Positions 45,501-60,319 of a stretch of DNA of 64,000 nt are shown here, piece by piece. The notes beneath the pieces were generated by a model. The model ran no database searches and was not told the DNA's origin. It saw nothing but the letters and a program-made list of their open reading frames with translations. How positions within the stretch are numbered: position 1 is the stretch's first letter; each line of letters opens with the position of its first letter. This DNA comes from Lutjanus erythropterus. Taxonomy: Eukaryota; Chordata; Actinopteri; Lutjaniformes; Lutjanidae. The position numbers and the translations under genes were made by a program. The stretch lies in NCBI GenBank assembly GCA_020091685.1, contig CM034601.1, forward strand, positions 10,542,419-10,606,418, written 5' to 3'.

Positions 45501-48500
45501 CTGATGTCAAACATTGTAAAATAAAATACAGCAGCTGAAAGGACAAGAACACTAAGAAGCTACCACATCACATTAACAGGAGTAAATGCATTTAATTTCA
45601 TTGACCCTTGAATTTAATATCAGTCCACATATTTTTTTTTTTTTACAAATTAAGATTGGCAGAACAAACACAGAGAGAACCACAAAATGACCAGTACAAT
45701 GTATGTGCTTCAGCCTGCTGTGCAGCTTGTCACAGGGGCTGTAATTAAAAGATTAGCCAATAAAAACAGCATCAAACTGTAGTGTAACATCACCCCCTGC
45801 TGCTCACTCCTGATACTCCAAGAGAGATCTATTTTTCTATGAAAAGCATGATGATTAATCTTTCTTCTTTCCTTTCTGTTGTTTGAAAGTTTGAAATTGG
45901 TTTTAATCAAAGTAGCCAAATGTGTGCAAGTGAAAAGATCTCCTTTCTCCTCACATATTTGGTTTTATATAAACATCAGGTGAATCCATTTAGCAGTGGA
46001 CAGTGTTAGCAGTGTCAAAGGCCATAGTATTGGGGTCGATGGACAGATAAAGTTCAAATACAGAGGTTATTTTGTTGAGTTTTTAATTATTTTGCTTGTC
46101 CTGACCCTTGAAAAGGTCACGTCGGGGCCCCGCTGCCATGTAACCTCATCAGACTGGTGGATGTTCCTGAGAAGAACTACTTTGCCTCCAAGGGAGAGGG
46201 AGAGGTGAGCAACGAGAGAGCTAACGTAAAGCTTATTTAAAATGTTTCAAAGCTGCTTTTTAACCTAATGACAAAATAAAGACACAAAGCCCAGATGTGA
46301 GATATGTAAAACGCATACAACATTTGAAAATTATTACTAGTGAGATAAGTTTTTTTTTTTATCTACAGTAGAAGTTGACATCCAGAATATGCATTTAATA
46401 CAACAGAATACAGGAGAATACAAACCTTTTCAGACTGTGTAAATGTCTGTTGTAAACATACAGAAATGGCGCATGTCCATTGTGTTTCCTACATTGTTTT
46501 TCACCATTTGAGGTTTGACTGGCGCTCTTCTAATTGCCTTATCTTGTTGCGCCCTCTTCCTGGCACCACCTACTGCTTAATTAACGCAAAACAGCAGTGG
46601 GTGGAAGCAAGCATTCAGCTGCATTATTTTCCTCTGATTTACTCAAAATTCGGTTCCGCTTTTCTCACCTCCCACACAGGTTTGCGTGAAAGGACCAAAC
46701 GTGTTTAAGGGCTACCTCAAAGACCCGGAGAGGACGGCCGAGACGCTGGACGCAGACGGCTGGCTTCACACCGGAGACATCGGCAAATGGTTACCTGTAC
46801 GTACACACACATCACATCAGACTGCATTACTTGGGCATTTACTTTAAGCAATGCATTGTTTTTATGCGGGTTTCTTCTTCTCATGATTTCCTGCAGAATG
46901 GCACACTGAAGATCATTGACAGGAAGAAGCACATCTTCAAGTTGGCGCAGGGCGAGTACATCTCCCCTGAGAAGATCGAGAACATCTACATCAGGAGTGA
47001 ACCCGTGGCACAGCTGTACGTTCATGGAGATAGCCTGCAGGTACGAATACTAACACACACTCAGCATTTTAATGTGTGGCATGCCTTAATTGATGTGATT
47101 GTCAGCTGCCTTTGTTAGTGTCAGGAATGACTGGAATTAGCCTGAGTGTATGTCCGTGGCTCCTGTGCTCTGTTTCAAGTCAGGACAAATAAAATCAATA
47201 CACAGTCTTTTTAACTCTTCCCTCTTATGTTTGTGTTTCCAGTCCTGTTTGGTGGGAATTGTGGTTCCTGACCCTGAAGTCATGCCTGAATGGGCCAAGA
47301 AAAAAGGCATCATAGGCACCTACAAGGACCTCTGTAAAAACACGGTAGGTGACACATAACTAAACCACTTCAAAATACTGATGATAATACGTGCTGAACA
47401 TACTGAAGTAACTTCTGTAACTTTTATCGACAGGAATTAAAGAAGGCGATCCTTGAAGATTTGGTGCGTCTGGGCAAGGCCAGTGGCCTCCACTCTTTTG
47501 AACAGGTAGGTGACAGTTATTATTGTGGCTAATAGTGTGTCTGACCTTTGTTGTAACGGTTATTTTAACTTTGTTCTGAAGGGGATTGTTTTATCTGAGA
47601 TACTTAATCAATAGCATTTTACCTTCTGTAGATGGCGGGAGTACTGCTGTGGACAAGGTCAGCAGGAAAAAATATTAAAAAAAAAAAAAAAAAAATCAGT
47701 TTAACTGTAATTTATATTTAGAATATTTTTATTGTTCTACCTTGCCGCCAAACAGCCTTTTCCGATGGGAGAATGAAGTTAAATAGCTTGTTAAATCACT
47801 TTCTCCCCGCCACCAGACTCCCTTTGAAAAAATGAGTAATTTTACCTTGTGGAACACAGGAGCTGCTGGTCTACGGCTGCCTTGATCATTTATTTTGTTT
47901 GTGTTATTGTGTGACTTCTGAGCCAGTTCAGATTCTCTGAAGTCACACAATAACACAAACTAACTAATCAACCAGAGCAGCAGTAGACTGGCAGCTCCTG
48001 TGTTCTGCAAGATAAAATTGATGTTTTTGTCAATGGAGTTTGGTTGGTTTGGACAGAGTGATATTTGGTTTATAACTGCGGGTTCCCAACAGAAAAGACT
48101 GTCTGATCTCAAGGTAAAATTGTGAAAATATTGTAAATATAGCAGATACTTAAACTGATATTGATTTTTTTTAGACAGGCCTTGTTTTAGGGGGGTAAAA
48201 TACAGTTTGTTGCTGACCCTGTCCACAGCTGTACATTGCTTAGCTTCTGACGCTTGAATTCCTGCTTCTTTTCCGAACTGGGGCTGTGCCAACTGTCAAT
48301 CTACTGTAGGTAATACGCTGATTATGGATAAGTACCTCAGAAAATCCAAATTATTCCAGTGCCAGTGGTATCTCAAGTAAGGTCTGTTTTATTAAGTTTA
48401 ATGTCTTTATAGGGTCTTTGAGTGATGCAGCTGTCCACAAATCGCTCCAGTAGAACTACTAAGTAACATATTTATACTGCATCAGTTTACTGTGTTTATT

Positions 48501-48981
48501 GCAAATTGTAAACATCATTATCCTCATCATCATAAATATGAAAGACAATGTTTGGCAAATTGTGTTTAGCAGATCTTTTCCCATGATATTAAAAACAGCT
48601 ATATTACAGAGTTATTGACATAGCTGCTTGTTCCCTTATATAAGCAAAGCTTCAGTAGCAAAACACTGTGTATTACAGGTCTTACGCTTTAACTTGTGTT
48701 ATCTATCACAGTAATTGGTTAAAATTTCACTGTTTTTAAAGTGTTATAACCAAGGAAGCTTGCAATAAATTCGGGGACACTCTGAAGAATCTTGTTCTCA
48801 TTCAACATATTTTCTTGTCCGTTCCTTTGTCCTTCTCAAGGTGAAGAACATCTACATCCACAACGAGATGTTTTCCATTGAAAATGGGCTCCTGACGCCG
48901 ACACTAAAGGCCAAGAGGCCGGAGCTGAAGGAGTTCTTCAAGAAGAAGATCGACCAGCTCTACAGCAGTATCTCCATGTGA
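12835..48981 (+). CDS. acsl6: Long-chain acyl-CoA synthetase 6 (20 coding exons)
   Basis: The enzyme ligates long-chain and polyunsaturated fatty acids to CoA using ATP, on ER or mitochondrial outer membranes; the mammalian protein is enriched in brain. Twenty exons join without a frame break into 698 aa from the ATG at 12844, or 701 aa from the ATG at 12835; human ACSL6 is about 697 aa. Visible in order: an N-terminal hydrophobic anchor (residues about 27-45), the ATP/AMP P-loop TSGTTGNPKG (276-285), the gate segment [13 protein letters not shown] (316-328), YGQTEC (458-463), the FACS signature [14 protein letters not shown] (533-546) and [14 protein letters not shown] after it. The start MQAQEMM and the phrase DLGQFFRSL match ACSL6 better than ACSL1 or ACSL5 as I remember them. 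Upstream 5' UTR exons probably exist but I could not place them. The next gene, meikin, begins about 6 kb downstream on the same strand, as expected for this syntenic block. Confidence 0.97.
13990..14740 (-). mobile_element. Eroded hAT-like repeat in acsl6 intron 1
   Basis: The right end, catcaatcattacacccctaa, is the reverse of the TAGGGGTGTAA terminus of common fish hAT elements, and the left side contains gttcgatacgattgagc and gatacgatatgatgc. A CpG-rich interior (14450-14620) stands out from the AT-rich intron. The left end is not defined. Confidence 0.5.
15773..15887 (+). CDS. acsl6: acsl6 coding exon 2
   Basis: Acceptor ctcgcag, donor tctg|gtgggt; 115 nt, leaving one base to complete Gly104. 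It encodes residues 66-103, including [14 protein letters not shown], a well conserved ACSL segment. Confidence 0.95.
16618..17170 (-). repeat. LINE-like 3' tail and AT-rich DNA in acsl6 intron 2
   Basis: Reading the minus strand, ccaatttccccctagggatc then aataaaatatttctgattctg is the 3' tail of a common fish non-LTR-type repeat ending in short tgattc repeats. The 500 bases beyond it (+ strand 16700-17160) are about 80 % A+T with imperfect repeats. Confidence 0.55.
17645..17691. repeat. (CA)n microsatellite
   Basis: Interrupted acacac/actcac run in acsl6 intron 2. Confidence 0.85.
18502..18566 (+). CDS. acsl6: acsl6 coding exon 3
   Basis: Acceptor ttccacag, donor gag|gtcagt; 65 nt. It encodes residues 104-125 with [19 protein letters not shown], the usual ACSL substrate-side segment. 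Confidence 0.95.
19138..19295 (+). repeat. Fragment of the 'gggctgcaa' hAT-like repeat
   Basis: It begins agggctgcaaataattattt and contains ttaatcagttgatcaactaa, a common fish motif; the far end is degraded. Intron 3 of acsl6 otherwise shows nothing except the SINE-like unit further right. Confidence 0.5.
20225..20545 (-). repeat. SINE-like repeat with tRNA-type B box
   Basis: The left part contains the teleost-wide phrase ggtttctgcctgttaaaagg followed by gagtttttcctcgccgc. Near the right end the minus strand reads GGTTCAAATCC (20509-20519), a perfect tRNA/SINE B box, within gttgttggttcaaatccggg. No full tRNA fold is present. Whether this is one element or two adjacent ones is unclear. Confidence 0.5.
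20750..20851 (+). CDS. acsl6: acsl6 coding exon 4
   Basis: Acceptor ctccacag, donor gag|gtgact; 102 nt, phase 0. It encodes residues 126-159, ending in [11 protein letters not shown], a hallmark of the ACSL family. Confidence 0.96.
21209..21308 (+). CDS. acsl6: acsl6 coding exon 5
   Basis: Acceptor gattttag, donor actg|gtaacc; 100 nt, leaving one base for Ala193. It encodes [20 protein letters not shown] (160-179) and [13 protein letters not shown]. Confidence 0.96.
21393..22132 (+). mobile_element. Degenerate hAT element with a BED-finger-like remnant
   Basis: Termini TAGGAATGAGCTG and its imperfect inverse CACCCATCCTTA are flanked by ATGTAAAT (21385-21392) and ATGTAAAC (22133-22140), an 8-bp duplication with one change. 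Inside, a frame at 21642-21854 reads [20 protein letters not shown] then HFLRYLK: the W-FG...C..C spacing of a BED zinc finger, without its final His. It lies in acsl6 intron 5. Confidence 0.65.
22723..22901 (+). CDS. acsl6: acsl6 coding exon 6
   Basis: Acceptor cttttcag, donor gag|gtacag; 179 nt. It encodes residues 193-252. The stretch [18 protein letters not shown] followed by [15 protein letters not shown] is especially close to ACSL6 and differs from ACSL5. Confidence 0.96.
22902..25249. other. acsl6 introns 6 and 7, nothing recognised
   Basis: Apart from microexon 7 (24131-24163), no repeat family or other exon could be supported in these two introns. Confidence 0.45.
24131..24163 (+). 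CDS. acsl6: acsl6 coding exon 7 (11-codon microexon)
   Basis: A 33-nt exon with acceptor tcttccag and donor ata|gtaagt, encoding [11 protein letters not shown] (253-263). It corresponds to the variable loop before the PDDLSIVCF strand and is needed to keep length and phase. Confidence 0.93.
25250..25301 (+). CDS. acsl6: acsl6 coding exon 8 (first half of the ATP P-loop)
   Basis: Acceptor ctccacag, donor acag|gtaaga; 52 nt. It encodes [17 protein letters not shown] (264-280). The nucleotide-binding motif is split between this exon and exon 9 by a 4.6-kb intron. Confidence 0.96.
26985..27065 (+). repeat. Fragment of the 'ggttcccaaactttttcatg' repeat
   Basis: A common fish phrase (cagggttcccaaactttttc then aaggagcccc). 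It lies in acsl6 intron 8; no ends found. Related fragments are at 38190-38292 (minus) and 54025-54115. Confidence 0.5.
27825..28346. mobile_element. hAT-like element in acsl6 intron 8
   Basis: It starts CAGGGCTGAACACTATATCA; the other end, tattgtgtcagagccta, is an imperfect inverse of it. The interior has the 'gatattgtgatgtgagacta' fish repeat. Target duplication not clear. Confidence 0.5.
28843..28870. repeat. (CA)14 microsatellite
   Basis: Uninterrupted dinucleotide run in acsl6 intron 8. Confidence 0.95.
29926..29999 (+). CDS. acsl6: acsl6 coding exon 9 (second half of the ATP P-loop)
   Basis: Acceptor ttccacag, donor gat|gtgagt; 74 nt. It completes Gly281 and continues [19 protein letters not shown], matching the ACSL6 version of this region. 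Confidence 0.96.
30161..30238 (+). CDS. acsl6: acsl6 coding exon 10 (fatty-acid gate exon, F type)
   Basis: Acceptor ctcctgcag, donor gag|gtaaat; 78 nt, phase 0 at both ends. It encodes [20 protein letters not shown] and FERLIE (306-331). This is the exon that in mammals has two mutually exclusive versions (a Phe or a Tyr in the gate). Here the gate residue is Phe319. Confidence 0.95.
30493..30559. repeat. (AC)33 microsatellite
   Basis: The longest pure dinucleotide run in the window, 254 bp after acsl6 exon 10. Confidence 0.97.
30712..31425. mobile_element. TIR element built of GGTTCTAC/GAACC repeats
   Basis: The left end cgctcatagaaataaaggtg and right end cccttatttctaagagtg are inverted versions of one another. 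The interior is a run of roughly a dozen 40-60-bp units, each containing ggttctac...gaacc or its reverse (for example 30896-30930, 31050-31110), so short hairpins recur throughout. Confidence 0.7.
31993..32613 (+). mobile_element. Foldback family A, copy 5 (most complete)
   Basis: It starts TTAAAGGGATAGTTCGGG and ends gacagtcccTTTCG, so the right TTAA is mutated. The two halves are inverted copies (left cagactccattggcaaaaac, right gcaaaaggagtctggttg). TTAA flanks suggest a piggyBac-like mobiliser; this is inference. Confidence 0.75.
33776..34045. repeat. Minisatellite with GCTAGCTAGC core
   Basis: About seven units of some 40 bases containing ttttagctagctagcaaaca and atgttttgttgac. The core is itself palindromic. 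Confidence 0.88.
34390..34443. repeat. Alternating purine-pyrimidine CA/CG run
   Basis: acacacaaacacacacgcac followed by gcgcacgtgcacacgcacac. In acsl6 intron 10. Confidence 0.85.
35123..35765 (+). mobile_element. hAT-like repeat (cagaggtgcgaccaagtcat)
   Basis: It starts CAGAGGTGCGACCAAGTC, with internal aagtcaagtcctaaagt and a mirrored agtcgagtctaaagtcatc near the right end. The right terminus is eroded. Confidence 0.55.
35795..35945 (+). repeat. hAT-like fragment (cagtgatggaaagtaacta)
   Basis: Starts CCAGTGATGGAAAGTAACTA with the 'tgtactcaagtg' phrase of common fish elements. The right boundary is not defined. Confidence 0.5.
36100..38080. other. Right part of acsl6 intron 10, nothing recognised
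   Basis: I looked here and in the rest of intron 10 for a second gate exon with an [13 protein letters not shown] reading and found none. No repeat family was assigned before the fragments at 38085-38292. Confidence 0.45.
38085..38292. repeat. Two dispersed-repeat fragments before acsl6 exon 11
   Basis: 38085-38160 holds the 'gaaaagtgcttgaatttgac' phrase. 38205-38292 is a minus-strand copy ending ccccaggttgggaaccagtg. The second stops about 45 bp before the exon-11 acceptor. Confidence 0.5.
38337..38471 (+). CDS. acsl6: acsl6 coding exon 11
   Basis: Acceptor ctccgcag, donor aag|gtgaga; 135 nt, phase 0. It encodes [20 protein letters not shown] (332-351) and [17 protein letters not shown]. 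Confidence 0.97.
39543..39677 (+). CDS. acsl6: acsl6 coding exon 12
   Basis: Acceptor cccgtgcag, donor cag|gtaagg; 135 nt. It encodes [20 protein letters not shown] (377-396) and [25 protein letters not shown]...LKRWLL is the ACSL6/ACSL1 form, not that of ACSL5. Confidence 0.97.
40642..40737 (+). CDS. acsl6: acsl6 coding exon 13
   Basis: Acceptor tgtgaacag (short, weak pyrimidine tract), donor cag|gtgaga; 96 nt. It encodes [20 protein letters not shown] and [12 protein letters not shown] (422-453), which contains the ITGAAP core strand of adenylate-forming enzymes. Confidence 0.95.
42721..42793 (+). CDS. acsl6: acsl6 coding exon 14 (YGQTE motif)
   Basis: Acceptor tttgtag, donor ccag|gtaagc; 73 nt. 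It encodes [20 protein letters not shown] and DWTP (454-477). YGQTE is the conserved A5-type motif that contacts the adenylate. Confidence 0.97.
43516..43610. repeat. Dispersed repeat fragment (tttattatcatgtgcacag)
   Basis: The phrase with gcaagtttcctggacaatga is familiar from fish genomes. Ends not defined; acsl6 intron 14. Confidence 0.4.
43733..44225 (+). repeat. hAT-like repeat (gggtagtaatggataacatg)
   Basis: Left part gggtagtaatggataaca and gtaatcagattacaaaaaat. The right end has gtaatccaaaaattgccatg. The middle is an AT-rich, poly-T-bearing stretch (44060-44150). Confidence 0.5.
44929..44949. repeat. (CAG)7 triplet repeat
   Basis: Seven pure units inside acsl6 intron 14. It explains the poly-Ala in the antisense open frame and is not coding. 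Confidence 0.95.
46116..46204 (+). CDS. acsl6: acsl6 coding exon 15
   Basis: Acceptor tgaaaag (purine-rich at its end), donor gag|gtgagc; 89 nt. It encodes [20 protein letters not shown] and YFASKGEGE (479-507). Confidence 0.95.
46680..46796 (+). CDS. acsl6: acsl6 coding exon 16 (FACS signature)
   Basis: Acceptor cacacag, donor cct|gtacgt; 117 nt. It encodes [20 protein letters not shown] and [14 protein letters not shown]. It carries the Asp of the TGD motif, which binds the ATP ribose in this superfamily. Confidence 0.97.
46897..47040 (+). CDS. acsl6: acsl6 coding exon 17 (hinge and catalytic Lys region)
   Basis: Acceptor tcctgcag, donor cag|gtacga; 144 nt. It encodes [20 protein letters not shown] (547-566) and [20 protein letters not shown]. 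The DRKK hinge marks the start of the mobile C-terminal domain. Confidence 0.97.
47243..47344 (+). CDS. acsl6: acsl6 coding exon 18
   Basis: Acceptor gtttccag, donor acg|gtaggt; 102 nt. It encodes [20 protein letters not shown] and [14 protein letters not shown] (595-628). [11 protein letters not shown] is closest to ACSL6. Confidence 0.95.
47434..47505 (+). CDS. acsl6: acsl6 coding exon 19
   Basis: Acceptor atcgacag, donor cag|gtaggt; 72 nt. It encodes [24 protein letters not shown] (629-652). Confidence 0.96.
47628..48357. mobile_element. Foldback family A, copy 6, filling acsl6 intron 19
   Basis: Two arms meet near 47935: ttgtgtgacttctgagccag and ctgaagtcacacaataacac are inverted around the centre. 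Outer markers ctgctgtggacaaggtcagc (left) and gctgaccctgtccacagc (right) pair as well. It takes up over half of the 1.3-kb intron; both outermost ends are eroded. Confidence 0.75.
48841..48981 (+). CDS. acsl6: acsl6 coding exon 20 (C-terminus and stop)
   Basis: Acceptor ttctcaag, stop TGA at 48979-48981. It encodes [15 protein letters not shown] and the terminus DQLYSSISM; the human ACSL6 terminus is also ...YSISM, which helps separate it from ACSL1 and ACSL5. Confidence 0.97.
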   Translation: MKNIYIHNEMFSIENGLLTPTLKAKRPELKEFFKKKIDQLYSSISM

Positions 48982-54958: not shown

Positions 54959-55055
54959 ATGAATCGATTCAAGTGTCGAGTCAAACTGAGTCGTGGCAGC
55001 GGATTGTCAAACAAACAAGACACACCAGTGAAGACAACACTGAGCAGACGAGACA
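54959..55055 (+). CDS. meikin: meikin exon 1
   Basis: ATG at 54959, donor acgagaca|gtaaga; 97 nt. It encodes a short basic N-terminus, MNRFKCRVKLSRGSGLSNKQ and DTPVKTTLSRRD. A stop 30 bases upstream in frame supports this start. Confidence 0.85.
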
Positions 55056-58000
55056 GTAAGAAATACACGTCCAAACACACACATCAGCTTTAACACACAC
55101 CGAAAGTAATGTATGTTTCTTTTGGCTAAACAAAATCACCTCATGGTATTCACACCGCTTTGGTTGGGATCAGCTTCGGTTATCAAACTGTAAAATAACT
55201 GATGAGCTTCACTTTATTTGTTAAATCTGTCAAATAATCATAGTATGATTTTTTTTTTTCCCATATCGTGCAGCCCCAGTAATGTTATTTACTGTATCAG
55301 ATAAAATGAATGAACCTTAAAAGCCCATAACTTATCTTTCTTTGAAATTCTTTATTTTCATATTAACTGACTTAAATTAATTAAATCAACTAGAGCTGCA
55401 ACGGTTACTTCATTATTAATCGACTATTAAAATAATTGTAAACTATTTTTGATAATCAGTTAATTGTTTGCCATCATTTTTTAAAAATAAGAATGTCCAA
55501 ATTCTCTGATTTCAGCTTCTTCAATGTGAATATGTTTTTTAAATAGGTTTCTTTACTCCTCTCTGACAGTAATCTGAATATTTCTGGGTTGCAGACAAAA
55601 CAAGACATTTGAGGACGTCATCTTGGGCCTCAGCAAACAGTGATCAACATTTAACTGTTAATCAATTAATCAAGAAGAATAATTGTCAGATAAGATGATC
55701 CTAAATAGCCCTAAAATTAACTTGGTACAAGGACTGACCATTGGCCTAAATAGCAGATAAGGCCGGTATTTTACTGCAGTTAATAAATGACAGATATGTC
55801 AGTTTTGCATGATGGGATAAATTTATTTTAATTGTTAAGCACAAAATGGTCAGAGGTCACCTGCAACAGTGTCAAGCTGAGTATGACTGTATTAATGTAT
55901 CAATGTCCTGTTAAATTCAGGTGAATTGATTAGTTGCAACTTGCTTTACATTCCTTTATCAAAACCTTTCAGAGTGCAGGAGATTTTTGCCCAAGAAGCT
56001 TTATGAAGCTCTTCCAGAGGAGCCTGAGCTGGAGGATACTAAAGTCTACACTGTCAAACCAAGCAACCCAGTGGCGGTGTGTATTCTGACTAGTAAATAT
56101 ATGTTTTAGATGTGTGGATAAGAAATTGTGACATCGATTCTCTTCATGGTAATAATAATAATATTGGCATGCTTTATGCATGTCCTTTACAGACTTGCAT
56201 TAAGCCTGTCCGCTGCAAATCTGCATTACGCTTGAGCAGCCCTGCGTTCGCTGAAAACTCCAGAGGCAAAGCCGTCTCGCCTGCCACACCAGCTAATAAA
56301 AAATCTACCAACCGAGTGTCACCAGCAGGTCAACCAACCATTCAGACGACTTCCAACGCAGATACTTTTAAAGGCTTTAAAGAAGAACAGGGAAACTTGT
56401 CATCGTCTCCAGAAAGCCTCATATCCTCCAGCATGGGGTCAGACACAATTTTCAGCTCTGACAACGATGATGATGATGATGAAGATTGTTCCTTCTCTGC
56501 CTCTGCAGCTTCCAGCAGTCTTTCCTCCCCAGAGATCTTCAGAAAAGACAACTATGGTGTGTGTTTGTGCATTGTTTTCTATATCCACAACCAGAATATA
56601 AGGTTATTCTTTCCTAGTTTTTTTTTTATTTCTTCTTTTCACAGTGGAAACATTGACTTTCCCCGTCGAGGACGAGCTGCTGGGTCTCCATCTTCCCATT
56701 AAAAACTCCACCTTACTGGATGTAAGCCATGCTAAAAGCATCCACATGCATCACCCCCCCAACCTTTCTATCATCATCGGTAAGAGAGCATCCCACATGC
56801 GTCTAGTAGTTTAAAGGGACAGTTCATCACCAAATCCAAAAAATATTTTTCCTCAGGGCCTATAGTGCTATTTATCTGTCCAGATTGTTTTGGTGTCAGT
56901 TGCGGAGTTTTGGAGATATCAGCCGTAGAGATGCCTGCCTTCTCTTGAATATTGTGGAACTAAATGGCAGTCTAACCAGACACGTCAGATAGGTTGTTAC
57001 ACACAACCACCAAGGGGCAGGCACTTAAAAAAAACCAAAACAAAAAAAACCCACATGGCATCTTTTGTTTGAGACAAGTCGCTTCCCACTGTCGTCACAC
57101 CTAAAACCACGCCTGTAGCTGCCAGTAGTCCCTCCTAGGATGCTCATTGGCTGCACACGCAAATGACTTGAACCCTGGCAGGATGGACTCTTGCGTGATC
57201 TTGCAAATTCAGCTGCTTCATAACGTAAATGGCATTCGACTTGTGGTGCTCAAAGTGCCAAAAAAAAATACATTTGGAAGATTTAAAACCAATGTCTCTT
57301 TCTAGAAATTATGACCTGGTTTCTCACGATAATCCACAGACCTTGTTGTGAGCAGAGAACTACACCTACCATCCGTACAACCACGCAAAAGGAAGCACGC
57401 ATCTACTCATGGACTAGAGGTTACAGCTCGGCCATGGAGGACGCCGTCAATGTTTACATTTTGCCCCGTCACAAGCCATTCATCCATGAGTAGATGCATG
57501 CTTCCTTTTACCCAGTGATACAGTTAAAGGTTGTGGTTGGATAGAAAGAAAATAGTTCCTACATGAAACTGCTCGCAACGAGGTCTGTGGATTATCTTTG
57601 TAACCAATTTATGATGTCTGGAAAGAGACACTGGTGTTGAGTTTTTCAAATGATTTTTTTTTTTTTTTTTTTGGTGCTTTGAGCACCACAAGCTGAGCAC
57701 CATCTAGTTCCATTATATTCAAGAGAAGGCAGCAATCACTACAGCTGATGTTTCCAAAACTCAACAACTCACACCAAAAATATCTAGATGGATAAGTAGC
57801 ACTACAGGGAAGAGGAAAAATATGTACTTGTAATATGTGTAAACTGACATTCTGCAGGGACAAATTGTTTCCCTAACAAGTAAAAACTGAGTATAATATA
57901 ATTTGAGGTGTGAATGTTGTGTACTCCAAACAGTCTGGCAATTGTCTGATAAGAACATAACCTCTGCCTGCAGATGCCTCTACGATTCTTGCTGATGATA

Positions 58001-58824
58001 TCAAGTGAGTTTGATCCAGTGTTCGGTCATATTGATGTTGAGCATACAGCTACTCTGTATCTTATGTTATGCATGTTCAATTTTATCTGGCAATCACTAT
58101 CTTTTCTCTTTGAAGCCAACACAGTGAAGATACGAACAAAATACATATGGACTCATTTAAATCAGGTGAAGACTCATTAATTTAGATCTTGAATAAATTG
58201 TATGATCTCATAATGAACTAAATAATAATCTTAACGTGAGTCATCCATTACCGTGACAAATTCCTAATCAGTAATTTTGGGTTCTTTTGATTCCTCAATC
58301 CGTAGACAAAGCCTTAAAGGGGAAAACCACACCAAATGTAAGAAAATCATCCAGCTATCTATTATGTGTCTAAAATATGATGTGTATTTTTGTCTAAATC
58401 AAAAATAAGAGGGGTTATTGTCATGGTCATGGTATTTGTGCTGTCTCAGTTCACCAACAGAAAGCCCATTTCATACAACAAGAAAGTATGGTTCAAAAGC
58501 CCCATGACTACCGAGACCTTTGAAGCAAAACACACCCCAGCCACCAAATTAACTGCTCACAACACCAGCGAGTTGGTCCGAACGTGCAGCCTGGCTGAGC
58601 AGAGGAAGCCTGAGACAAACACATCCAGAGCAGGTGAGATCAGTTCCGAAGAAGAGACCGGACGACTGAGGCCGAGGCCTGCAGAAAGTAGGCCGGAGAA
58701 AGCCAAGTTCTTCGACTTTATCGACGACGGTGATAGGGACATGTTCTTTCAGAGGATGAGCGAAAGGTGTGTTAGACTCAGAAATGTTCCCTTGCTTCCT
58801 CTCATGGCTGATAAGCACATATAA
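54959..58824 (+). CDS. meikin: Meikin, meiosis I kinetochore factor (8 exons)
   Basis: Meikin is known in mammals to bind CENP-C and Polo-like kinase 1 at meiosis I kinetochores, where it promotes mono-orientation of sister kinetochores and protects centromeric cohesin; separase cleaves it at anaphase I. Eight exons join in phase to 395 aa (human about 370). Visible here: a basic N-terminus (1-32), a Ser-rich linker with three S-S-P motifs (82-84, 138-140, 178-180), an acidic run (159-165), a separase-type ExxR (EIFR, 181-184), then DELLGLHLPIKNSTLLD and a C-terminal block with KKVWFKSP, AKFFDF and FFQRMSERCVRLR. Identification rests on these features and on its position between acsl6 and fnip1, as in human. 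The protein evolves fast and I cannot align it here, so the name is strong inference rather than proof. An unrelated protein at this position is the main alternative. Confidence 0.82.
55390..55690 (+). repeat. hAT-like 'agagctgcaacggttac' repeat in meikin intron 1
   Basis: It opens agagctgcaacggttacttc. The right part has caagacatttgaggacgtca and tcaattaatcaagaagaata, familiar from a very common fish MITE. Confidence 0.6.
55973..56076 (+). CDS. meikin: meikin exon 2
   Basis: Acceptor acctttcag, donor gcg|gtgtgt; 104 nt. It encodes CRRFLPKKLYEALPEEPELE and DTKVYTVKPSNPVA (34-67). It joins exon 1 at a split Lys codon. Confidence 0.82.
56193..56556 (+). CDS. meikin: meikin exon 3 (Ser-rich, acidic, ExxR)
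   Basis: Acceptor cctttacag, donor tatg|gtgtgt; 364 nt, the largest exon (residues 68-188). Low-complexity Ser/Asp content is typical of a disordered, phosphorylated linker. It contains all three S-S-P motifs and the EIFR site at 181-184. Confidence 0.88.
56645..56779 (+). CDS. meikin: meikin exon 4
   Basis: Acceptor ttttcacag, donor atcg|gtaaga; 135 nt. It encodes ETLTFPVEDELLGLHLPIKN and LDVSHAKSIHMHHPPNLSII. An internal GT (56722, atgtaagcc) could be an alternative donor, but the frame stays open to 56779 and joins the next exon in phase. Confidence 0.82.
56811..57857. mobile_element. Foldback element in meikin intron 4
   Basis: It starts TTAAAGGGACAGTTCATC. Left-arm segments (atatttttcctc at 56851, ttctcttgaatattgtggaa, cttgtggtgctcaaagtgcc, tttctcacgataatccacag) reappear inverted on the right (ctgtggattatctttgtaac, ggtgctttgagcaccacaag, ttccattatattcaagagaa, gaggaaaaatatg). 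The centre is a tight palindrome around tactcatgga/tccatgagta (57404-57495). The right end is eroded. Confidence 0.8.
56970..57225. mobile_element. 256-bp insertion nested in the foldback left arm
   Basis: It interrupts the left arm exactly where the right arm is continuous. It is flanked by identical 9-bp direct repeats, TAAATGGCA at 56961-56969 and 57226-57234. No terminal inverted repeats are obvious, so its class is open. Confidence 0.7.
57974..58004 (+). CDS. meikin: meikin exon 5 (31 nt)
   Basis: Acceptor cctgcag, donor tcaa|gtgagt. It encodes DASTILADDI and starts right after a 1.2-kb intron filled with transposon DNA. Small, but its phase fits both neighbours. Confidence 0.75.
58116..58165 (+). 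CDS. meikin: meikin exon 6 (50 nt)
   Basis: Acceptor ctttgaag, donor tcag|gtgaag. It encodes NQHSEDTNKIHMDSFKS. Only this reading keeps the frame between exons 5 and 7. Confidence 0.72.
58306..58337 (+). CDS. meikin: meikin exon 7 (32 nt)
   Basis: Acceptor atccgtag, donor aaat|gtaaga. It encodes DKALKGKTTPN. Short; accepted because both splice sites are good and it links exon 6 to exon 8 in phase. Confidence 0.72.
58450..58824 (+). CDS. meikin: meikin exon 8 (C-terminal block and stop)
   Basis: Acceptor ctgtctcag, TAA stop at 58822-58824; 124 codons (residues 272-395). It begins FTNRKPISYNKKVWFKSPM and ends with a compact charged/aromatic block, AKFFDFIDDGDRDMFFQRM then SERCVRLR. In mammals the C-terminal part of Meikin carries the CENP-C-binding function, so this exon is the probable kinetochore-targeting region. 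Confidence 0.85.
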   Translation, partial: FTNRKPISYNKKVWFKSPMTTETFEAKHTPATKLTAHNTSELVRTCSLAEQRKPETNTSRAGEISSEEETGRLRPRPAESRPEKAKFFDFIDDGDRDMFFQRMSERCVRLRNVPLLPLMADKHI

Positions 58825-58910
58825 ACCTCTGTCCTCTGACATCTGGAGTTGCTTGAGATGTCTGCGTGTGAAATATCATGCAAACATAGTGTAAGGAACC
58901 TTTCAACTTA

Positions 58911-59303
58911 CACTGATCAGCCACAACATCAAAACCACTAACAGGCAAAGTGAATATGTACGTTTGTTTGTTTGTTTAGACACCCCAGAGAATTTGTAGG
59001 AAAATAAATCATCTCAACAAAACATTATTAGTTGGCAAAACTTTCAAAATTAGGACTTTGAGTTTTGCTCAAAACTTAGAAAAAATCTATTGAAATAAGA
59101 TGCTTGGAAACTAAGAGTTTTCTCAACTTTTTTGGTTTTACAGTGAGGATCTGTTCCTAATGTCTTGGTGCAGATACCCCAGGACACATTCAGAAGTCTT
59201 TTGGACTCCATACCTCAGCAGATCAGAGCTTTGTAGCATCAAGGGGGACCTGTACACTATTGCAGTATTAGTCAGGTGGTTTTAATGTTATGGCTGATCA
59301 GTG
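58911..59303 (+). mobile_element. Internally deleted Tc1-like transposon
   Basis: It opens with CACTGATCAGCCACAACAT and closes with ATGTTATGGCTGATCAGTG, an inverted terminal pair flanked by TA on both sides. The 3' part (about 59151-59270: tcttggtgcagatacc ... gggggacctgtacac) resembles, from memory, the transposase C-terminal region of fish Tc1 elements. The middle, including most of the transposase, is gone. It sits 86 bp after the meikin stop codon, in the expected 3' UTR. Confidence 0.85.
59003..59008 (+). terminator. First AATAAA after meikin, inside the Tc1 relic
   Basis: No AATAAA occurs between the meikin stop (58824) and the transposon. The first hexamer lies within the element. Another cluster follows at about 59790-59830. 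Confidence 0.45.
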
Positions 59304-60004
59304 TACAATGCTTTTCAACCTGGTCCTTATGGTTCCAACATAAACTGTGGTGCATGTGCAATATAGCTTAACTGAACCTTTGAATGCATTGTTTTATGAA
59401 AAAGCACTTTTCGATGTCCTGTTTCCATCCTCTGTAAGCCCTCAAAGCAACCCCTGATTTCCTGATGCAGAAGTGTTATCAAACAAGTGTTAGATGCAAA
59501 ATGACCACTAGATGTCACACCTGTATTTCCTTTGCATAACCATCTTTTCTCTGATTATTTTTCTATTTTACATGTGATATATACATGTTTGTGTTTGTTT
59601 ATCTGCGTTTGTATTGACTCTTTTGGCACATGGGAGTGCCAGAAGATCTTAATCTTAAAGCTGAATGTAATCTAAATGTGAAGTCATAACGTAAGTTTAG
59701 TTTTGGTGTCACTTTGTGGTTTTCTATATCTGTGATTTATCTGTCTTTCTCCAAACTTAGACGTTTCTGAGCGTCATATTAAATGTTCCAAATAAATAAC
59801 TAAATAATGAATAAATAAATATATAAATAAACCATTGTTATGTTTTGTTTAGCACAGTCCTGATTTTTCCCCACTTAACTCTTCTCTCATTTTTGTCTTT
59901 TTAAATGTGTCTTACAAGCAGCTCAGACGTCTCACTAGTACGATTTCAGTGAATAAATTTCATGCTGTCACGATTCCCGACAAAACATCAACACAGCGAA
60001 TCCT

Positions 60005-60227: not shown

Positions 60228-60319
60228 ATGCCTCCGACTCTCTTCCAGAAACTTTTCAACAAGAAAAATGCGTTTTCGTCGCCACCCCCGAGATGCAGCA
60301 AAGAGGACCCAGCTTTCAG
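60228..60319 (+). CDS. fnip1: Folliculin-interacting protein 1, first coding exon (partial gene)
   Basis: FNIP1 partners folliculin (FLCN) as the GAP complex for RagC/D on lysosomes and also binds AMPK. Thirty codons, MPPTLFQKLFNKKNAFSSPP then PRCSKEDPAF, plus two bases end at the donor ttcag|gtacct. The human protein starts MAPTLFQKLF and has ...GFSWPLPEF, so the split AG-C/T Ser at the junction fits exactly. The longin and DENN-type domains are in later exons, not found before the right edge, so intron 1 is longer than 3.6 kb. The position after meikin matches human gene order. FNIP2 starts similarly but sits elsewhere in vertebrates. Confidence 0.92.

Follow-up and report, generated by a model that had tools for sequence, protein, structure and literature searches.

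What is encoded in the interval between an acyl-CoA synthetase gene and fnip1 in Lutjanus erythropterus, and does it provide fish with a counterpart of MEIKIN, the protein that in mammals makes meiosis I differ from an ordinary division? We have addressed this question in a stretch of 64,000 nucleotides, termed the window (positions 10542419-10606418, in a genome of 938 Mb distributed over 444 contigs), for which a preliminary description had proposed a fast-evolving meikin gene assembled from small exons. On the forward strand, eight exons between positions 54959 and 58824 can be joined in frame to a coding sequence of 1188 nucleotides, which specifies a protein of 395 residues without internal stop (Table 1). 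All seven introns are of the GT...AG type, and the peptides of the 31-, 50- and 32-nucleotide exons align with the corresponding segments of related proteins. The proposed in-phase assembly, including these three very short exons, could thus be reproduced in full. Two repeats are found in the vicinity of the coding segments. A nested inverted repeat in intron 4 (56859-57808), whose outer arms of 109 nucleotides are 83% complementary and 732 nucleotides apart, is perhaps a mobile element, and a segment directly 3' of the stop codon (58909-59305), bounded by 30-nucleotide terminal inverted repeats of 93% complementarity, resembles a small DNA transposon.

Table 1. Features of the candidate gene and its neighbours, in window coordinates.
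Feature	Position	Strand	Length (nt)	Residues	Remarks
Acyl-CoA synthetase, last coding exons (upstream neighbour)	46690..48981	+			start approximate, exons partly traced
Exon 1	54959..55055	+	97	1-33	start codon, GT donor; ATG aligned with the start of relatives
Exon 2	55973..56076	+	104	33-67	AG/GT borders, in phase
Exon 3	56193..56556	+	364	68-189	SPEIFR (179-184), preceded by an acidic and Ser-rich stretch
Exon 4	56645..56779	+	135	189-234	KNSTLLD (208-214), NLSIIID (228-234); invariant columns
Exon 5	57974..58004	+	31	234-244
Exon 6	58116..58165	+	50	244-261
Exon 7	58306..58337	+	32	261-271
Exon 8, including stop	58450..58824	+	375	272-395	RVxF-type KKVWF (282-286)
C-terminal island	in exon 8, FFDF onward			about 356-381	helix in a relative
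fnip1, first coding exon (downstream neighbour)	60228..60319	+			resembles FNIP N termini; weak match by itself (E 0.35)

Relatives of this protein were identified in three sequence searches. A phmmer search with the 395-residue query retrieved 82 proteins at E <= 1 among 7846 candidates, a profile built from 26 rows retrieved 93 at the same threshold and a profile of a conserved block in 11 rows retrieved 238 at E <= 10, the best 120 of which were listed; pooled, the listed matches comprise 138 distinct proteins. The top phmmer match, a protein from Morone saxatilis, covers 99% of the query with an E-value of 6.6e-126 and shows 62% identity to the window protein in our alignment A1. The phmmer list includes stickleback and Nothobranchius furzeri, and no zebrafish protein was noted among the matches listed. 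Profile matches extend to salmon, carp, catfish, eels, bonytongues and the bowfin, and the species given for the 138 listed proteins are, as judged by name, ray-finned fish, with percomorphs, Anguilla, Arapaima, mormyrids and Amia among them. For certain contigs of about 1.2-1.7 kb, labelled 'lgn', the reading frame is nearly whole, as in P0051 with 384 residues on 1553 bases, and if introns in these species resemble those of the window gene, such contigs would represent spliced transcripts. The locus is therefore a real gene with an intact multi-exon model that is conserved across ray-finned fish. The small size of the exons and the low identity seen everywhere but in exon 4 might be taken as signs of a chance assembly of exons or of a pseudogene decaying in L. 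erythropterus, but with regular borders in every intron, 395 uninterrupted codons, a full-length match to the Morone protein and conserved islands that are intact in the window protein, we consider such an origin barely credible.

The family diverges quickly, as had been proposed, although this description is fair only outside of short islands. Judged by percent identity, the mean conservation relative to 18 relatives, taken from the 25 other rows in A1, amounts to 71% in exon 4 and to 41-52% in each of the seven other exons. The related suggestion that such a gene would easily be missed by automatic annotation holds in part: the gene goes unnamed or is occasionally misnamed, but models of it are already contained in the public annotation of many fish. 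Most names of the 138 listed proteins read uncharacterized or hypothetical, and 'meikin' appears in none of the names shown, some of which are abbreviated and some rows nameless. Four proteins (P0066, P0099, P0109 and P0138) are listed publicly under other names, namely nucleolin, RRP15-like, slc22a21 and cyclin-dependent kinase inhibitor. Entries of fish described as 'uncharacterized protein' with the precomputed Pfam assignment PF27928 belong to the same family as the window protein and are without assigned function. In a local Pfam search, the query remained without a match, as did seven relatives and 19 open reading frames of the window when the cut-off was applied, and searches of PDB sequences with either the query or the block profile found nothing meaningful.

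The position of the gene offers the first indication of its identity. The candidate is located between an acyl-CoA synthetase gene, which we take to be type 6 (acsl6), and fnip1, with all three on the same strand. Two of the upstream exons match enzymes of the ANL family in a PDB search, and the stop codon of the C-terminal exon ends at 48981. Although recognised in this manner, the joined exons show no Pfam match above cut-off, indicating that Pfam misses this short piece. On the downstream side, the assignment of fnip1 is strengthened by matches to FNIP_N located 17 and 22 kb past the end of the window on the strand of its first exon, and by a piece of 34 residues, also past the window end, which scores 54.0 bits with FNIP1 compared to 43.8 bits with FNIP2. 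The syntenic placement claimed in the preliminary description is thus borne out. In human, chr5:131.25-131.28 Mb presumably lies between FNIP1 and ACSL6, with all three genes on one strand. This is the interval where, in the passages of a study of human MEIKIN variants, these variants are located (PMC13218795), and excerpts describing intervals in dog and sheep name ACSL6, FNIP1 and MEIKIN together in unordered lists (PMC9897549, PMC11161479).

A second indication is provided by the anatomy of the protein, which is predicted to be mostly disordered with a few conserved short islands. In AlphaFold models, the Morone relative shows a mean pLDDT of 52.7 with the C-terminal helix of the FFDF island as sole confident part (pLDDT about 93), and that of an eel relative is of low quality (mean pLDDT 50.1). 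The following motif counts refer to 137 proteins, namely the 138 listed and the window protein minus P0090 and P0130, which lack the NSTL core; chance levels were derived from shuffles only, and the fractions overstate independent events because the sequences share ancestry and include isoforms of single genes. The pattern F[FV][DHI]F occurs C-terminal to the core in 107 of these proteins, and 94 retain the order of cleavage site, RVxF motif and F[FV][DHI]F. Certain lineages extend at the C terminus by an additional block of about 70 residues, encountered in 7 of the 138 proteins (P0089, P0099, P0100, P0124, P0128, P0133 and P0136, from two Anguilla species, Albula, two mormyrids and Arapaima) and lacking in the window protein. 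A tblastn search for this block in the window gave a best E-value of 0.15 far from the gene, which we regard as noise. In the moray Gymnothorax (P0131), the model ends where the block would begin, and the eel C terminus shows no Pfam match above cut-off and no meaningful match in the PDB.

Upstream of the core, the island SPEIFR matches a separase motif with a phosphorylatable residue at P6 and would thus constitute a putative cleavage site. Separase is described, in the passages of the cited study, to cleave at [D/E/S]PhiExxR, with GPEIMR as its first autocleavage site; phosphorylation at P6 is said there to promote cleavage, with human Meikin likely included, and ExxR by itself is considered common, with further docking being required (PMC12609080). 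The fish sequence resembles this human autocleavage site. Of the 137 proteins, 126 contain a motif of the form [SD]xExxR within the 70 residues that precede the NSTL core, compared to 5.7% of shuffled segments. The forms encountered most often are SPEIFR (71), SIEEFR (18) and SPEVFR (14), with either Pro or Ile at P5, and in 79 proteins the island contains P-S-P rather than S-S-P. The site is absent in 11 proteins, which include eight from catfish (seven species) and one from salmon with a Cys at P1, and two models truncated at the N terminus. Among nine presumed catfish proteins with a core, Cys replaces the P1 arginine in eight (P0092, P0094, P0095, P0096, P0105, P0107, P0120 and P0122), and the protein of Trichomycterus (P0098) keeps Arg. 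As read from the sequences, this substitution possibly reflects a natural loss of separase cleavage.

Within exon 4, the residues N-S-T-L of the KNSTLLD island are invariant in the 26 aligned rows, with the second leucine being nearly so. Its S-T-L segment fits the polo-box core S-[pS/pT], and the island could thus be a candidate dock for a Polo kinase. In the source passages, self-priming by Plk1 is described to favour Asn at position -2, Leu at -3 and the absence of Pro at +1. The island agrees with this preference in its asparagine and in the absent proline, but not in the lysine at -3. MEIKIN contains a Polo-binding motif of the form S-T-P, which in contrast is absent from the window protein, where we find three S-S-P sites instead.

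How do these features compare to MEIKIN? The C-terminal part of MEIKIN, a meiosis-specific kinetochore protein, binds CENP-C, and the mammalian protein shares with the fish family its gene neighbourhood, poor conservation, mostly disordered character and a conserved C-terminal element. The likeness extends to a separase-type ExxR motif upstream of the parts assigned to Polo and kinetochore binding, and to a candidate Polo-box island. Reviews report that Meikin directly binds CENP-C (PMC7614391), that separase cleaves it at an ExxR motif (PMC10003635) and that the resulting C-terminal fragment still interacts with Plk1 (PMC8844990) and kinetochores (PMC7614391), with a review cautioning that cleavage was demonstrated in mitotic cells with ectopic and in oocytes with exogenous Meikin (PMC7617577). 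Since this fragment keeps both binding activities, the order of cleavage site, S-T island and helix is required, and the order found in fish agrees. The fish gene can also be compared with the meiosis-I regulators Moa1 of fission yeast and Spo13 of budding yeast, the MOKIR group; to our knowledge, no sequence similarity is to be expected between the fish gene and either Moa1 or Spo13. The regulators of this group are said to have only a small Polo-binding motif in common, according to the passages of one report (PMC7614391).

Short motifs alone are weak evidence, and it could be argued that an unrelated fish gene occupies the interval between acsl6 and fnip1, with MEIKIN residing elsewhere or being lost in fish and the encoded protein fulfilling another role in the cell cycle. 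No tetrapod protein is found among the 138 listed (for the block profile the best 120 of 238), and the listed matches thus contain no sequence link to tetrapod MEIKIN; the local Pfam search, in which neither the query nor, at the cut-off, any of four relatives was matched, would equally agree with an unrelated gene. Against this, the gene agrees with what is known of MEIKIN in its position, orientation and fast evolution, and the protein in its disordered architecture, its S-T island and its separase-type site with a P6 residue open to phosphorylation, and no profile match among those listed suggests a known unrelated family, so that we regard this explanation as quite unlikely. Instead, the gene at 54959-58824 is very probably the teleost orthologue of MEIKIN, an assignment that rests on position and anatomy because tetrapod MEIKIN entered the comparison by description rather than as a sequence. 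For the same reason we refrain from stronger confidence, and the mechanism outlined below is inferred. The name given in the preliminary description is thereby supported by synteny and the matching order of conserved motifs, and it likewise remains inferred.

Two further motifs of the fish family resemble docking sites of phosphatases and define its novel element as putative phosphatase docking. A K-V-x-F sequence of the RVxF type is located C-terminal to the core in 124 of 137 proteins, compared to 7% of shuffles, and reads KVWF in the window protein; of the 13 proteins without it, 7 end within 133 residues of the core, and in the other 6 the core is followed by 169-353 residues. Right after the NSTL core, LSxIx[E/D] is present with Glu in 46 and with Asp in 52 of the 137 proteins, and a looser form of it in 114, compared to 1.7% of shuffles; the window protein, with LSIIID, exhibits the Asp form. 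The sequence LxxIxE is a motif for binding of PP2A-B56. RVxF, in turn, is described in part of a published account as main PP1 docking motif of Spc105 (PMC13065327). In the passages of the literature cited here, neither an RVxF-type nor an LxxIx[ED]-like motif is mentioned for MEIKIN. No title among those listed in our searches of open-access papers concerned PP1 docking by Meikin or meikin of fish, and the passages retrieved from two texts naming both meikin and zebrafish do not treat a fish meikin.

Taken together, these features suggest a sequence of events in which the gene would be expressed in germ cells, and its C-terminal helix would help to recruit the protein to CENP-C at the meiosis-I kinetochore. 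There, the S-T island, in L. erythropterus together with the S-S-P sites, might dock Polo-like kinase 1, and the docked kinase would promote mono-orientation and the protection of centromeric cohesin. At anaphase I, separase would cut after Arg184 of SPEIFR, leaving a C-terminal fragment with the parts for Polo and kinetochore binding that may persist for meiosis II. That fish Meikin would in addition serve as a scaffold for Plk1, PP1 (via its RVxF-type motif) and PP2A-B56 (via its LxxIx[E/D]-like motif), one that would directly link mono-orientation to cohesin protection and would be uncleavable in most catfish, is an extension that we advance tentatively and consider doubtful.

Naming this family would place MEIKIN in experimentally accessible fish, together with natural variants that may show which of its short motifs matter. 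In particular, the separase-type site, which has apparently been lost in most of the catfish seen, would offer a natural comparison on the purpose of Meikin cleavage.
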